A DNA stretch of 64,000 bases, from positions 38,119,598 through 38,183,597 of the forward strand of contig OX246739.1 in NCBI GenBank assembly GCA_945910005.1. Direction: 5' to 3'. Source of the stretch: Isoperla grammatica (lineage: Eukaryota; Arthropoda; Insecta; Plecoptera; Perlodidae). Under the pieces are notes generated by a model. That model did no database searches, was not told the DNA's origin, and worked only from the letters and a program-made list of their open reading frames with translations. Made by a program: the position numbers and the translations under genes. Each line of letters starts with the position of its first letter. Within the stretch, counting starts at the first letter, position 1. This document shows, in pieces, positions 7,123 to 47,630 of this stretch.

Positions 7123-7356
7123 TCTGACATGCGTCTGCCGCATACGTCAGACGCGTCATACGAACCGTACCTTAAGGCGGTCTTGCAAGGCAGTGGCTTC
7201 ACCATTGTTACAAACAAAGGAGACATGCACATTGTTGCATCTGGAGGGAAGGGAACATAAGTATCTACCACACAATCTAAAAATTCCAGTAATTCTTTTA
7301 GACTAGATTATTATTGTTAAAAGATAATTATTACATATCTTTAAAAAAATTTCAAG

Positions 7357-8082
7357 ATGTATGACAGCACAGATTTCTATAAAAAGACTGTTTATATGAA
7401 AGATTACCGAGCATTTCCAGGAGAAAGGGGACCTATTGCAACGTTTGAAAAGGAATACCCCGACACAATAGCTGGCCCTTTTTATCAATATATCGTCCCA
7501 GAAAATTACAAAGGTCGGCTGCCACCATCAATACCCTATGAGCATCACGACGAGGTAATCAAACGAGTCGTGGCAAGGAGACCTCACTTGAAACATTACT
7601 TTATTGACGAACCACTAAACCTAGATATGATAGCAAAAAAATACAAGTTCGACAATAGAACCATGTATCAAGTAGAGCTCTGTAATCTTGACGATTTGGC
7701 CGGCGGGTATGTAAGTAATGTACATCTTCCGGACGATTACGTGGTCCCCCCGACGATACACAGATGTAGTTATCGTGACCCCAGGTTATCTCCCTTCCCG
7801 CTGGAATCGCGACGGAAAATAAAGGCGCCCCCAGACAATCTCAAACCATGCGAGATTACTCGTCGGGTAATGCAAATTGTGACGGGTGATACGGAGTACC
7901 AGGGAGTTATTGGGAATACTGGGAGTCGTATCATCAACGAAGAGTATCACGGAAAGTACACGAGAGCCAAGAGACCCAATAACTGGGACATCCAAACCGC
8001 AATGGTAGAGTTCCTCCCTAAGAAGCAAGATGAAGGTCTTTGTTGGAAAGCAACACACACATCCAAACGGAAAAACCCCTAA
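7357..8082 (+). CDS. uncharacterised 241-residue protein, single exon
   Basis: An uninterrupted frame of 241 codons opens with MYDSTDFYKKTVYMKDYRAF and ends with a basic tail (TSKRKNP). An AATAAA-type signal follows at about 8137. No signal peptide, transmembrane segment or familiar catalytic motif is visible. The sequence is rich in Tyr, Pro, Asp and Arg, with short Pro/Tyr-centred blocks (PFYQYIVPENYKGRLPPS; RPNNWDIQTAMVEFLP). That composition resembles ciliary or sperm microtubule-inner proteins, but this is only a guess from style. It is the only long unbroken ORF between the Harbinger element and 18 kb and its codons look constrained. It is intronless, so a retrogene is possible. Function unknown. 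Confidence 0.65.
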   Translation: MYDSTDFYKKTVYMKDYRAFPGERGPIATFEKEYPDTIAGPFYQYIVPENYKGRLPPSIPYEHHDEVIKRVVARRPHLKHYFIDEPLNLDMIAKKYKFDNRTMYQVELCNLDDLAGGYVSNVHLPDDYVVPPTIHRCSYRDPRLSPFPLESRRKIKAPPDNLKPCEITRRVMQIVTGDTEYQGVIGNTGSRIINEEYHGKYTRAKRPNNWDIQTAMVEFLPKKQDEGLCWKATHTSKRKNP

Positions 8083-28559: not shown

Positions 28560-29940
28560 AGCTAACAAATTGATATCAAAAAGACATCTTAAAGATGCCA
28601 TTTTATGATAAACTGGATATCTTAAAGATGTCCATAAAGATAGGAAATGATATCTTTAAAGTAACTTTAAGACGTTCCTATGTCCCACTTGCAGACATCT
28701 TTATGATATCATTATAAGATATCTTAAAGACATCATGCAGATGAACAACTTGATATCAAAAAGATAAATTTAAGATATCTTTTTGGGATTAATTGTATTA
28801 TTTTAGATAGGAAAAGATATCTTTAAGGTATCTTTAAGATGTTTCTAAAATTCTCCGTTCATCTTTATTACATCAATATGAGCTATCTTTAAGACTCCAT
28901 GCTAAGATAAAAAAAAGATGTCTACAAAGATAGGAAAATATATCTTTAAGTAATCTTTAAGACATTCATATGGCCCACTTTCAGATATCATTATTAGATA
29001 TCTAAAATACGTCATGCTAGACTATATCTTTAAGATGTTTATATATTCCACTTTAAGACATCTTTACGATATCATTTCAAGATATCTTTAAAATGTCATG
29101 AGATGATATCTTTTATGGTAGCATTTCTAGTTACCTTTAAGTTATCAAATAGATATGTAAAAGACACCTTCCACAAACCAAAAAAAGATCTGTAAAATGA
29201 TATCTTTAATGCATCTTGGGGTTGATATCTTACAGACATCTAAAGGATGTCAAATTGATACGGAAAAGACATCAGTTCATCTAAAACAAATTTGAAATGA
29301 TATCTTTTAGATATCTTTGGAGCGATATTTTAAAGGCATCTTAGAAGCGGTATCTTAAAGACACCCTAAAGATATCAAATTGATATGAAAAAGACATCCA
29401 TCCATCTTAAAAGGGTCTTTGAAATGACATCTTTAAGACATCTTTAGAACTGTATCTTAAAGACACCCTAAAGATATCAATTTGATATGCAAAAGACATC
29501 CATCCATCTTAAAAGAGTCTTTGAAATGACATCTTTAAGACATCTTTAGAACTGTATCTTAAAGACACCCTAAAGATATCAATTTGATATGAAAAAGACA
29601 TCCATTCATCTTAAAATGGTCTTTGAAATGACATCTTTAAGACATCTTTAGAACTGTATCTTAAAGACACCCTAAAGATATCAATTTGATATGAAAAAGA
29701 CATCCATTCATCTTAAAATGGTCTTTGAAATAACATCTTTAAGACATCTTTAGAGCGGTATCTTAAAGACACCCTAAAGATATCAAATTGATATGAAAAA
29801 GACATCCATCCATCTTGAAAGGGTCTTTGAAATGATATATTTAAGACATCTTTGGAGAAGTATCTTAAAGACACCCTAAAGATATCAAACAGACACCTTT
29901 GGAGTGATATCTTTAAGACTTCCAAAATGCATCAATTTGA
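28560..29940. repeat. GATATC-rich satellite, 102-bp period
   Basis: From 29351 the motif TATCTTAAAGACACCC recurs at 29351, 29453, 29555, 29657, 29759 and 29861, exactly 102 bp apart. Upstream (28560-29350) the array is more diverged but uses the same AAGATATCTT and AAGACATCTTTAA words. The array runs into the assembly gap, so its true length is unknown. ORFs across it are by-products of the repeat. Confidence 0.9.
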
Positions 29941-30140
29941 NNNNNNNNNNNNNNNNNNNNNNNNNNNNNNNNNNNNNNNNNNNNNNNNNNNNNNNNNNNN
30001 NNNNNNNNNNNNNNNNNNNNNNNNNNNNNNNNNNNNNNNNNNNNNNNNNNNNNNNNNNNNNNNNNNNNNNNNNNNNNNNNNNNNNNNNNNNNNNNNNNNN
30101 NNNNNNNNNNNNNNNNNNNNNNNNNNNNNNNNNNNNNNNN
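29941..30140. other. 200-N assembly gap
   Basis: Exactly 200 N, a conventional gap size, placed where the satellite array collapses. Confidence 0.99.
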
Positions 30141-31744: not shown

Positions 31745-34700
31745 TTATGCTTCTGATAACGACGTGTTGAAATGCGGTTCCGTCACAAATCTTGAAGCTT
31801 CCAAGCAGGGTAGCGGGTCCTCTAGCCAATTAGGAAGAACTTTGATATCGTCGAACAGTGCCTGCCCTGGACTCTCTGTGGCCGACACCTGTCTATGGCC
31901 GAGCAACTTGTAGTGTTTGCTGATCTTGCCCAACCGAACACCCTCCTCGATCAGCTGAGTTGCGGCGAGGAACTGGCTGGGGGTAGGGTGATCCGTGATG
32001 AAGGTGCCGATGAAGGAAATACCTGGGTGATAAAACGACACGATTAGACAAACTATTCCAAGCAAAATCTCCAACAAAGGTGCAAAGGAGATGAAAAGAA
32101 AACTCTTGATTTGCTGAAATATTTTCTCGAGACTTGAGGAAACTGATAAGTACATTAAATATAGGGACACCTCTTGGTACTGACGGACGTTAATTTGTGT
32201 CTATGTCGAAGTAAGATACAGTATAATGTAAAGAATAATATTGATGCATGTTGCCGAAAAACAAAGTACCATTATATACAAAGTGGTTTACCACTTTTCT
32301 TAATTCACTACTATAGCAAGGTCTACTTGAACGCCGCCTAGCGGCTAGTCGTGTATCTCCGTGCGCCCCAACACCATCCCATCCTCTACCCGTGTATACG
32401 TAGCCGTCACCGCCCACAAGGAAGTTGTAGCCAATGAGCGACTTACCTATGCTACACACGCTGAACCCATAGGCGTGCGCCCCCACACCGTCCCATCCTC
32501 TATCCGTGTATACGTAGCCGTCACCGCCCACAAGGAGTTGTAGCCAATGAGCGACTTACCTATGCTGCACACGTTGAACCCATAGGCGTGCGCCCCCACA
32601 CCGTCCCAAACTCTACCCGTGTATACGTAGCCGTCACCGCCCACAAGGAAGTTGTAGCCAATAAGCAACTTACCTATGCTACACACGTTGAACCAATAGG
32701 CGTGCGCCCCCACACCGTCCCATCCTCTACCCGTGTATACGTAGCCGTCACCACCCACAAGGAAGTTGTAGCCAATGAGCAACTTACCTATGCTACACAC
32801 GTTGAACCAATAGGCGTGCGCCCCCACACTGTCCCATCCTCTACCCGTGTATACGTAGCCGTCACCGCCCACAAGGAAGTTGTAGCCAATGAGCGACTTA
32901 CCTATGCTACACACGTTAAACCCATAGGCGTGCGCCCCCACACCGTCCCATCCTCTACCCGTGTAGCCGTCACCGCCCACAAGGAAGTTGTAGCCAATGA
33001 GCGACTTACCTATGCTACACACGTTGAACCCATAGGCGTGCACCCCCACACCGTCCCATCCTCTACCCGTGTATACGTAGCCGTCACCGCCCACAAGGAA
33101 GTTGTAGCCAATGAGCGACTTACCTATGCTACACACGTTGAACCCATAGGCGTGCGCCTCCACACCGTCCCATCCTCTACCCGTGTATACGTAGCCGTCA
33201 CCGCCCACAAGGAAGTTGTAGCCAATGAGCGACTTACCTATGCTACACACGTTGAACCCATAGGCGTGCGCCCCCACACTGTCCCATCCTCTACCCGTGT
33301 ATACGTAGCCGTCACCGCCCACAAGGAAGTTGTAGCCAATGTCTGACCAGCCCTTGCTCTCGATGTGGAAGGTCTGAGTGATACGGACGATGTACACGCA
33401 CTGTGCTTGACTATAGCACTGCTCTGTGGCTGTATGACTGTAAAGGAAACGATATATCATTATTATCAACTTGACCAAACAAACTGCGTCCAATTATATA
33501 ACCGTGGTAATGTAGAGGTTTCATAATATCAATGTAACTAGTCTAATGCTTGAGAAATAGTCGAGTGTAAATTGTACCAACTTTGTTTTCTACTTCTTTA
33601 CTTCTTTTAATTTCTACCCTATCATATGCTTTTGGGTTGGATACCTGGAGATTCTTAGCACGCGTTTGTGGCTAATGAGGCTTTCTCACTCTACTATAAG
33701 CGTAAGACTGACTTTGTACGAATGTGTGAAAGAACGCCAGGAATCTGTTGACTTTTGTTGAAACAGTGTGCATGAAACGGCCGTTAGATAAGGAAGCGAA
33801 GACGAGGAGGGAACTTTGAATTCTTTGTCATATCGATATTCATAATTATCGATATCACTATTTCAATGGCACAAATATGGGTTATTTTTATGGTCACTGT
33901 GGTGTTTGTTGTCGTACCTAATGATGACGTAAGGGACGGGAAGACTCAATTTGTCGACGGGATGCGTTGCTGGCTGAGCCAACCAATCCTGGCGACCCAA
34001 GATGCGCAGCTTCCCACTCAGCGTCACATCTGCACAACACATGGTTGAATATTATAAACATCATTGATATTATTTTAAGAGTTATGTTTTCTTTACATGT
34101 TGCAATCACACTCTTATTACATGCTACATCACGGAAGTTCTCGGAATTAATTGGGGCGTGTTTTCTAAGCCGTTGATGGTATAATCTTTTTTTTTATGGA
34201 GATATACAATTTAAAATTGGCATACTGTGCAAGTTTTCAAGAACACACCTCATCATATTCTGATGGCGTCAGAACTATTACGAAGCAAGAGAAACACACA
34301 ATTAAGTTAATTTAGTTGCTTGCTTAGTTCTCTAAAAAAATAAGTCAATATTTGCTACAGCACTATCTGTGGTCGGGATCGTATGATCTCGTTTCTGCAG
34401 CGTGTGTTCATAAACATTACATTCATTCATCTAGCAGAGAATTTTCCTGGCGTTGGCGCACGTATTGTTTTTGCTGGGATACGATAAAAATGTTCGGTTC
34501 AAAAGGATCAAGTTGAATTATTTCTGTTCAGTTTTCCTCATAGCCCCTGCATGCTTGAATGTTTCTCTGGTGTTGACTCTGGGTTGGTTTATGTTGGGAA
34601 TAGATAAAATGTTGGGTTCAAAGGGATCAAGATGCATTATGCTCATTTCTTCATAGCTCTGGTTGGGATGTGTGTCAATGTATTGTATAATAAACTGCCA

Positions 34701-46700: not shown

Positions 46701-47630
46701 ACAACATTGTCTCGACTGTGATTGGCGTGACTGAGATTGTGATTGGCGTGACTGAGATTGTACCACTCGCCACGACAAAGTTGTCTCGACTGTGATGGCG
46801 TGACTGAGATTGTACCACTCGCCACGACAAAGTTGTCTTGATTGTGATTGGCGTGACTGAGATTGTACCACTCGCCACGACAAAGTTGTCTCGACTGTGA
46901 TTGGCGTGACTGAGATTGTACCACTCGCCACGACAAAGTTGTCTCGACTGTGATTGGCGTGACTGAGATTGTACCACTCGCCGCGACAAAGTTGTCTCGA
47001 CTGTGATTGGCGTGACTGAGATTGTACCACTCGCCGCGACAAAGTTGTCTCGACTGTGATTGACGTGACTGAGATTGTACCGACCACTGCGCACCGTAGA
47101 ATTTGCAGCGCCAATCAGAGAAGAGAAACAGGGTAGTCTTCGCACTCACCCTTGTTCGCCGCCGGTGTGACGTCAGAGGGTGCAGGAAGGGGCTCGGGCT
47201 CGACCTTGACCCCAGGGAAGTCACCCTCCACAGCATCCTTCCCGTTCGCATACACAACCTGTTTAATGGTCACGGGACCCTGGTAAAATGTTTTATTCCC
47301 GAAGTGAATGTCCGACGAATTGTTCACTGAAACGGAACCAAAACTCGGCACTTGTTGCACTGCTGCATCCAGTGCGACGCCGCAACGTCCTCCATCTGTC
47401 GTCAGGTCGTCGTCGTCGTCGTCATCATACACGGAGATGGTGGACTCGTCGCCCGAAGAGTCGTCATACTCCAACACTGCACCGCCTACCCCAGGCGCAG
47501 CTAGGTTCACGCGCTGCCCCTCAACCACTGCGACGCCTAGCCCGGGAGCAGCTAGGCTCTCTGTCTGCCCCTCGACCACTGCGACGCCTAGCCCGGGAGC
47601 AGCTAGGCTCTCTGTCTGCCCCTCAACCAT
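31745..47630 (-). CDS. membrane peptidoglycan recognition protein (PGRP-LC/LE-like)
   Basis: Five exons with agreeing phases: complement(47150..47630), (37675..37902), (33918..34029), (33238..33437), (31745..32022), giving ~432 residues. Exon 1 encodes a cytoplasmic tail with three 17-residue repeats, an acidic Asp run and SSDIHFGNKTFYQGPVTIKQ, which I read as the RHIM-like signalling motif of insect PGRP-LC/LE. Exon 2 has an Arg cluster then one membrane helix (VVVFAISLTILLVIV), a type II topology. Exons 3-5 form the PGRP fold: RILGRQDWLAQ, PYVIISHTATEQC, SDIGYNFLVGGDG, GWDSVGAHAYGFN and GHRQVSATESPGQAL. The His/Tyr/His ligand positions are kept, but the zinc Cys of amidase PGRPs (TECPG) is Ser, predicting binding without cleavage. 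Exon 4 is followed by the 114-bp array (32361-33340), which offers alternative donors. Product: probable surface sensor of bacterial peptidoglycan in an Imd-type pathway (inferred from family). Confidence 0.85.
32361..33340 (-). repeat. 114-bp tandem array of a PGRP exon segment plus splice donor
   Basis: About 8.6 units, read on the minus strand, each encode 38 residues (IGYNFLVGGDGYVYTGRG, then WDGVGAHAYGFNVCSIGKSL). Every complete unit contains AGCATAG|GTAAGT, the donor that joins in phase to the last PGRP exon. The repeat junction lies ~14 nt into the intron, so exon end and donor were copied together. Units differ by a few substitutions. Unit 4 lacks 6 bp in frame, unit 8 lacks one base and shifts frame, and unit 9 is cut short. 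Donors 1-7 are usable in frame, so isoforms with 0 to 6 extra 38-residue blocks are possible in principle. Confidence 0.92.
34030..37674. other. PGRP intron, no other gene seen
   Basis: AT-rich intron. A diverged tandem duplication is visible at about 34,441-34,640 (the GGTTCAAAAGGATCAAG block recurs ~110 bp later as GGTTCAAAGGGATCAAG). A G run lies at 37,082-37,096. The ~100-codon frame at 35910-36236 has no recognisable feature and I do not call it. Confidence 0.5.
37381..37530 (+). repeat. degenerate tRNA-derived SINE
   Basis: A-box GTGGCTCAGCGGGC (37391) and a degraded B box (GGTTTCGTTAACC, 37434-37446) are followed by a CCTCAGCAGTAAGG block. The SINE at 58904 has the same order (TGGCTCAGCGG, B box, then TTCCTCAGTCGTTAAG), so these are one family. 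Confidence 0.6.
37903..40680. other. PGRP intron with tRNA-like fragments
   Basis: No second gene recognised in this part of the first PGRP intron. Minus-strand B-box-like sequences lie at 40,193-40,206 (GGGCTCGATTCCC) and 40,652-40,665 (GAGTTCGAGTCCC), probably SINE scraps. A C-rich run lies at 38,241-38,260. Confidence 0.5.
40681..42435. mobile_element. decayed hAT split by a LINE
   Basis: The left end CAGAGCTTTTCAAAC followed by CCCGCGACCCC, and the right end GGGGTCGCGACCC then TTTGATATAGCGCTG, are inverted partners of the CAGnGnTTnnCAAAC hAT type. A basic stretch on the minus strand near 42,230-42,377 (KKIYKMYLEKLKKEAQRKTF) may be a transposase remnant. The 8-bp flanks do not match well, so the copy is old. 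Confidence 0.6.
40773..42195 (-). mobile_element. 5'-truncated LINE reverse transcriptase
   Basis: The minus-strand frame (stop at 41055) begins within the RT domain near 42,195. Motifs: DGIVIDFAKAFDVVPHDRL, SGIPQGSVLGPLLF, VRLFADDCIIYR (FADD active site), CKYLGLTVASNLSWDQH and LEYCASVWG. The frame is open to the stop. The 3' end is an (ATCAAT)n tail at 40,773-40,801. It resembles the LINE at 24.4-26.3 kb in domain order but differs in composition and sequence, so it is a second lineage. Inserted into the older hAT. Confidence 0.88.
42436..43068. other. PGRP intron, no gene
   Basis: Only a minus-strand tRNA-like B box near 42,767-42,780 (GATTCGAGTCCCGGG) was noticed; probably another SINE scrap. 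Confidence 0.45.
43069..43457. mobile_element. 389-bp hAT MITE (TAGGGTTGCCATA family)
   Basis: TAGGGTTGCCATA at the left and TATGGCAACCCTA at the right are perfect partners, flanked by perfect CTATCACT duplications (43061-43068; 43458-43465). It contains the self-complementary GGGGCAAAGCCCC. Related end fragments lie near 9,172 and 27,887. Confidence 0.9.
43458..44737. other. PGRP intron, no gene
   Basis: AT-rich sequence without a supported gene. The ~100-codon frame at 43759-44058 (minus) shows no recognised domain. Confidence 0.5.
44738..45115. mobile_element. near-perfect 378-bp palindrome (foldback MITE)
   Basis: The ends are CATGTTTTCATGTAAGAGGG and its inverse. The two ~170-bp arms match with only a few differences and meet at a short spacer containing duplicated GACGTGGACACT words around 44,890-44,960. 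Flanking ACATGT/ACTTGT is at best an imperfect duplication. Recent origin is implied by arm identity. Confidence 0.8.
45116..46683. other. PGRP intron with hAT scrap
   Basis: No gene seen. On the minus strand 46,213-46,310 contains CAGTGGTGTAACCGTAAAGG followed by a GC-rich block with GCGAAGCAGGGGGGCCC, typical of a hAT end. No partner end was found. Confidence 0.45.
46684..47082. repeat. 53-bp minisatellite beside PGRP exon 1
   Basis: GTACCACTCGCC recurs at 46686, 46760, 46812, 46864, 46918, 46971 and 47024 (mostly 52-54 bp apart; the first interval is longer). It lies ~70 bp downstream of the donor of PGRP exon 1. Three overlapping minus-strand frames across it are repeat artefacts. Confidence 0.88.

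Follow-up and report, generated by a model that had tools for sequence, protein, structure and literature searches.

A tandem array of exon end and splice donor in an apparent PGRP-LC orthologue of Isoperla grammatica

The forms of Drosophila PGRP-LC include LCy, together with LCx and LCa. The mutually exclusive 3′ variable regions of this receptor are made by splicing, according to the available text of the source (PMC9013439). In human UBC, tandem dual-specific AGGT splice sites are present and RT-PCR gives a ladder with steps of one ubiquitin, the units being kept or removed in frame and stochastically; VCX3A is described as analogous to UBC in the available part of the same report (Duan et al, 2024; PMC10809524). 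The AGGT array of UBC may be taken as the nearest known parallel to the locus studied here. Introns from tandem arrays were reportedly described by Zhuo and colleagues in 2007. In fission yeast, repeated AGGT segments in 24-bp arrays are spliced as introns (cited in PMC4974935), and proto-splice-site duplications have been described for novel introns of Drosophila (PMC2891723), both as given in the portions of these papers that were available. The intronic minisatellites of earthworm metallothionein were also considered and offered no parallel in the available part of the source (PMC12783039). Repeated donors were not found for any PGRP, or for immune receptors of other kinds, in the literature searched, which omits most subscription journals.

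The host gene

The window, which is the whole stretch of 64,000 nucleotides of I. grammatica DNA that was analysed, was searched by tblastn with PGRP-LC-like proteins of Timema, Anabrus and Apis. The matches placed a cytoplasmic RHIM-like exon at ~47.1–47.4 kb and PGRP exons at 34.0, 33.4 and 32.0 kb, and a hydrophobic-segment exon and the start codon were added to these by reading the sequence. The resulting gene model on the minus strand contains five exons that join in phase into a protein of 415 residues when the first of the donors described below is used, with the sole stop at the end. This agreed with the original prediction that the first donor gives a normal PGRP. Exon 1 (47,630–47,150) starts with ATG, encodes an acidic N-terminus and the motif SSDIHFGNKTFYQGPVTIKQ, which we take to be RHIM-like, and ends at the donor G|GTGAGT. 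The RHIM functions in signalling for PGRP-LC and LE, as stated in the available part of PMC8124813. Exon 2 (37,902–37,726) encodes a hydrophobic, probably transmembrane segment CLLSMVALSFVVVFAISLTILLVIV, which was spotted by eye between the RHIM-like motif and the PGRP domain, is in phase with both neighbouring exons and aligns with the hydrophobic segments of relatives. The PGRP domain begins in exon 3 (34,029–33,918, up to VIIS), continues in exon 4 (33,437–33,238 with donor 1; 200 nt, ending in SIG) and extends into exon 5 (32,022–31,745), which is entered at the acceptor CACCCAG|GT and runs from ISFIGTF to the stop.

The PGRP domain of this protein was recognized as PF01510 (Amidase_2 fold) with 5.2e-20, and its best match by sequence among solved structures was Drosophila PGRP-LCx (2f2l, 4.9e-54). 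When the protein was aligned with seven relatives (Timema twice, Anabrus, Gryllus, Apis and two sand flies), the RHIM-like motif (HFGNKTFYQGPVTIKQ; P0005, a short record from Timema, lacks it), the hydrophobic segment and the PGRP domain lined up, the first ~100 residues were weakly conserved, and a C-terminal tail of ~20 residues was found only in the protein of the window and in none of the seven aligned relatives. The closest named relatives of the PGRP part among the best 120 of 386 matches were from Timema (70–71% identity) and Gryllus (67–71%), which suggests a polyneopteran gene, and the two highest scores in that search were of two-block proteins from Diachasma and Zaprionus with 52–53% identity. 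A set of 225 PGRPs was assembled from these best 120 of 386 and the best 120 of 2673 matches, with 15 in both, and tblastn of the set (E 1e-4) matched this gene's exons only, no further PGRP cassette being found in the 64-kb window. From its exon structure and alignments, the host gene is apparently an intact insect PGRP-LC orthologue.

The PGRP part was compared with LCx in a register set by residue type at the 14 contact positions named in the available part of PMC7177551, in which the LCx letters fit at 14 of 14. The LCx contacts to DAP-peptidoglycan were identical in 13 of the 14 listed positions, and D395 is replaced by Ser. In bumblebee PGRP-LC, just one of 12 such contact mutations abolished binding (PMC7177551), so that conservation of the contacts is no proof of DAP binding. 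In PGRP-LB, zinc is bound by H42, H152 and C160, according to the part of PMC8124813 that was available, and the alignment placed the counterparts of the zinc-ligand His in the window protein at those of SHT and GHRQ. The amidase set of His, His and Cys is incomplete, the place of Cys being taken by Ser (TESPG), and this Ser marks the receptor as one of the non-catalytic, recognising kind.

Two more tandem arrays were seen in the gene, a 51-bp × 3 in-frame repeat VEGQTESLAAPGLGVAV in the exon 1 N-terminus (47,475–47,629, minus strand) and a 53-bp × 6.5 minisatellite in intron 1 (46,738–47,081), ~70 nt past the exon 1 donor, which suggests that tandem duplication happens readily at this locus. 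The long first intron also holds a reverse transcriptase ORF (PF00078; 41,055–42,380, minus strand). Elsewhere in the window, the plus strand carries another reverse transcriptase ORF (PF00078; 24,419–26,158), exons of a calnexin/calreticulin-family gene (PF00262; 55,583–56,299 and 60,130–60,651) and a 245-aa ORF (7,345–8,082) for which neither a homologue at E 0.001 (42 candidates) nor a Pfam match was found.

The array of exon end and donor

A tandem array was detected by TRF on the minus strand at 32,360–33,341 with a period of 114, 8.7 copies and 95% matches, and its score of 1789 is far above chance; an extra TRF row with a period of 450 is the same array. The array has nine unit starts (ATTGGCTACAAC) running from 33,340 to 32,435, and its nine units span 33,340–32,360. 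In a unit of 114 bp, 103 nt are exonic and 11 nt (GTAAGTCGCTC) intronic, fewer than the ~14 nt of intron originally predicted. Eight AGCATAG|GTAAGT motifs were counted, with spacings of 114, 114, 108, 114, 114, 114 and 113, and these motifs at unit spacing bear out the idea that the end of a PGRP exon was amplified along with its own splice donor. The array has a G+C content of 0.56, compared with 0.37 for the remainder of the same intron and 0.40 for the window, and its flanks are unique and clean within the complete gene model.

Unit 1 (33,340–33,227) carries donor 1, with the last exon base at 33,238 and GT at 33,237, and is followed by unit 2 (33,226–33,113; last exon base of donor 2 at 33,124) and unit 3 (33,112–32,999; last exon base of donor 3 at 33,010). 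Unit 4 (32,998–32,891; donor 4 at 32,902) measures 108 bp owing to a 6-bp in-frame deletion. The Gly-to-Trp and Ser-to-Leu changes described beforehand were confirmed, each of them in unit 5 (32,890–32,777; donor 5 at 32,788) as well as in unit 6 (32,776–32,663; donor 6 at 32,674). Unit 7 (32,662–32,549) provides the last in-frame donor at 32,560. In unit 8 (32,548–32,436), which measures 113 bp, the deletion of one T causes a frameshift, and a stop is directly followed by donor 8 (32,447). Unit 9 (32,435–32,360) is cut off after GCGCAC and has no donor. Thus, the description of the array as about 8.6 units of exactly 114 bp was right in the period and failed for units 4, 8 and 9.

No difference was seen among the eight donors at positions −7 to +6, a deviation in units 5 and 6 coming at +7, and AGGT occupied the same place in eight of nine units. 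Donor spacing was divisible by three in six of the seven intervals, the last being 113; an in-frame unit needs little explanation, as a multiple of three arises by chance in one of three cases. When donors 1–7 were joined to the acceptor at 32,022/32,023, open proteins of 415, 453, 491, 527, 565, 603 and 641 residues were obtained. Donor 8 is out of frame owing to the deletion in unit 8, with the stop just before the junction. All seven of the upstream donors are thus phase-compatible with the last exon, and at this level of the DNA the claim that any of them would splice in the same phase holds. From donor 1 to donor 8, the length of exon 4 was 200, 314, 428, 536, 650, 764, 878 and 991 nt, and the downstream intron went from 1215 nt to 424 nt. 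Upstream of the AGs of the units, pyrimidines made up 9–10 of 20 positions, also when counted by hand in the register of the real acceptors, compared with 12–14 of 20 at the four acceptors of the gene model. A long open frame of 293 aa from stop to stop lies opposite the array (32,465–33,346, plus strand) and is probably a by-product of the 114-bp period.

Units 1–8 showed 2 to 11 aligned differences in pairwise comparison and no two were identical; units 5 and 6 have two changes in common, and units 1 and 5 another. Such private and shared differences are expected from real duplication. Relative to the consensus, 17 distinct substitutions were found, nine nonsynonymous and eight synonymous; two of them lie where unit 9 breaks off (GCC to GGA) and are probably part of the junction and not mutations, and the count by hand without these was 8:7. 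In a null in which the same 17 base changes were placed at random equivalent bases of the unit in 20,000 draws, the mean was 6.4 synonymous changes and P(S ≥ 8) was 0.26, by which no selection on the units was detected, 17 changes giving little power. No stop occurred among the 17 changes, and 0.48 of the null draws contained one. Donor conservation across the eight units was not significant either (P = 0.16). The substitution pattern therefore fits neutrality at low power. The array had been proposed to be recent, gene-converted or selected; of these, selection found no support in the counts, and a recent origin belongs to the reading favoured below.

The repeated block corresponds to LCx 397–431 and holds 4 of the 14 listed contacts, namely Tyr399, Arg413, Gly424 and Asn426. 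Units 5 and 6 have Trp in place of the Gly424 equivalent, and unit 8 has Ser in place of that of Asn426. The block had been said to contain the positions of the catalytic Tyr and of a zinc His; the Tyr is there, and the His of HAY is no zinc ligand when judged by the PGRP-LB ligands and the alignment, the zinc-ligand counterparts lying outside the block.

The occurrence of this block was also followed among the 225 PGRPs listed. At least two blocks were found in 68 of the 225, and the spacing was at least 96 residues in 67 of these 68. Block spacings of ~96–130 are smaller than a whole domain, which indicates that partial domain repeats occur as well as whole ones among the matches listed. An array like the donor ladder was absent from the other PGRPs among the 225 listed, which included one single short-range block duplication. 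This smallest spacing (36) belongs to a predicted PGRP of Branchiostoma floridae (P0134), in which a block of 36 residues is perfectly repeated in tandem within a single domain. Nearly the same block is thus tandemly duplicated inside a PGRP domain as in the window, although the amphioxus case has one extra copy, different breakpoints and the status of a gene prediction in a multi-domain protein. In its AlphaFold2 model, residues 88–122, where the first copy ends and the second begins, had pLDDT <50, and the remainder of the second copy completed a domain. The model matched PGRP-LCx 2f2l with TM of 0.95 by target length and 0.46 by query length and rmsd of 1.1, over 201 alignment columns for a 166-residue chain, a count that would suit alignment to the first domain with the block gapped out. 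This model suggests that a single extra block could loop out with the fold kept. The exon 4 read-through of the window, modelled alone without exons 3 and 5 and with the frameshifted tail of unit 8, had a mean pLDDT of 39.3, and 25 of 329 residues reached 70. In this prediction the read-through blocks do not seem to fold by themselves, which argues weakly against a structured ladder.

Explanations for the repeated donors

With moderate confidence, we regard the array as a recent neutral minisatellite at an exon edge with competing donors, in which donor 1 would give the working receptor and the longer forms would be by-products. A segment of 114 bp, reaching from the last part of exon 4 to nucleotide 11 of the intron, would have expanded in tandem and copied the 5′ splice site, so that eight strong donors of identical sequence precede one acceptor. 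The downstream donors, possibly with the same AG|GT sites as acceptors, would be used stochastically and give low-to-moderate amounts of forms with one to six extra blocks; these would mostly be tolerated, since each unit keeps the reading frame, and the array may drift neutrally in the manner of minisatellites. This reading is favoured by the array and its donors, the in-phase 415-aa model, the resemblance to PGRP-LC-like proteins from Timema, Gryllus, Anabrus and Apis, which extends to the RHIM-like motif, the 13 of 14 LCx contacts, the distinctness of every unit, the 9:8 ratio of substitutions, the frameshift of unit 8, the two other arrays of the gene and, by analogy, the UBC precedent. 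Against it count the in-frame unit length and the lack of stops in units 2–7, which a selected ladder would also show, the low power of the neutrality test and, for use of the AGs as acceptors, the low pyrimidine content upstream of them. A tolerated accident appears more likely than a system tuned for diversity.

By the principle of exon definition donor 1 would be preferred, and by that of closeness to the acceptor the last donors. An inert intronic minisatellite is a possible, if doubtful, account, in which donor 1 would be used near-exclusively through definition of the 200-nt exon and units 2–9 would be mere intron. Such near-exclusive use would agree with the normal PGRP given by the 200-nt exon, compared with the 314 to 991 nt of the later donors, and with the neutral changes and the broken frame of unit 8; the 225 PGRPs listed, with one short-range duplication and no ladder of this block, also agree with it. 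However, the eight donors are identical over AGCATAG|GTAAGT, and the core site gives donor 1 no advantage, and in UBC an array of this kind can be spliced into a ladder (PMC10809524, available part).

It is unlikely, in our view, that each AG|GTAAGT acts as both acceptor and donor with removal of 114-nt or multiple introns, in dual-specific or recursive splicing that would make the array an intermediate of Rogers-type intron gain; this account overlaps with the minisatellite with competing donors that we favour. The AGGT at the site in each of eight units and the six of seven spacings that are multiples of three are consistent with it, and precedents are offered by the available descriptions of UBC and VCX3A (PMC10809524), the fission yeast 24-bp AGGT arrays (PMC4974935) and the Drosophila novel introns (PMC2891723). 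The low pyrimidine content of 9–10 of 20, a weak tract, would nevertheless speak against the unit AGs as acceptors, and a real acceptor is already present downstream.

Mis-assembly of the array or of its length is judged very unlikely. A 200-N gap does lie in the window at 29,941–30,140, close to another tandem array (102-bp × 5.5, 29,333–29,889), but the private substitutions, the 6-bp deletion and the changes shared by neighbours are unexpected from a looped assembly, and the flanks are unique and clean in a complete gene model.

A selected ladder, in which donors 1–7 would give graded receptor lengths and the extra peptidoglycan-groove segments (equivalents of Tyr399, Arg413, Gly424 and Asn426) would tune binding or clustering, could draw on the seven in-frame donors, the four of 14 contacts in the block, the alternative 3′ variable regions that Drosophila PGRP-LC already has (PMC9013439, available text) and the amphioxus model with a normal fold and one block's length disordered, but is made highly improbable by the neutral substitution pattern, the frameshift of unit 8, the loss of the Gly424 equivalent in units 5 and 6 and of the Asn426 equivalent in unit 8, the non-significant donor invariance and, weakly, the mean pLDDT of the read-through exon. 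It is just as hard to credit that this would be the first case of an immune receptor gaining diversity through a donor ladder of variable copy number, with one to seven groove-segment copies from a single exon, array length differing among individuals, and variety both heritable and splicing-driven.

With eight identical donors in one gene and exons from 200 to 991 nt, the locus is a natural test case for donor choice by the spliceosome and for the tolerance of a coding minisatellite at the edge of an exon. Should the longer forms be made, a key sensor of bacterial cell walls would vary in length through splicing; should they not be made, the gene would be an example of seven perfect donors kept silent.

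Comparison with known systems

The models of intron gain of the Rogers type, as available in PMC4974935 and PMC2891723, resemble the array in the duplication of a segment with a splice site and in the possibility of alternative splicing with the frame unchanged. The two differ in the duplicated site, which in the window is a donor with the start of an intron.

UBC and VCX3A, as far as described in the available part of PMC10809524, share with the array an in-frame tandem repeat, an AGGT splice site fixed in each unit and the possibility of an isoform ladder in steps of whole units. In contrast to both, the amplified site of the window resembles an existing donor at the end of an exon, with an intron behind it and a genuine acceptor downstream. 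Furthermore, the array differs from that of UBC in lying inside an immune-receptor fold and not between whole domains, and its ladder is predicted from the DNA.

The gene itself resembles insect PGRP-LC in its architecture, with a RHIM-like motif, a hydrophobic segment and a non-catalytic type of PGRP domain. Variety at the 3′ end of Drosophila PGRP-LC, in the available account of it (PMC9013439), comes from the choice of alternative 3′ variable regions, whereas the gene of the window has repeated donors on one domain exon.
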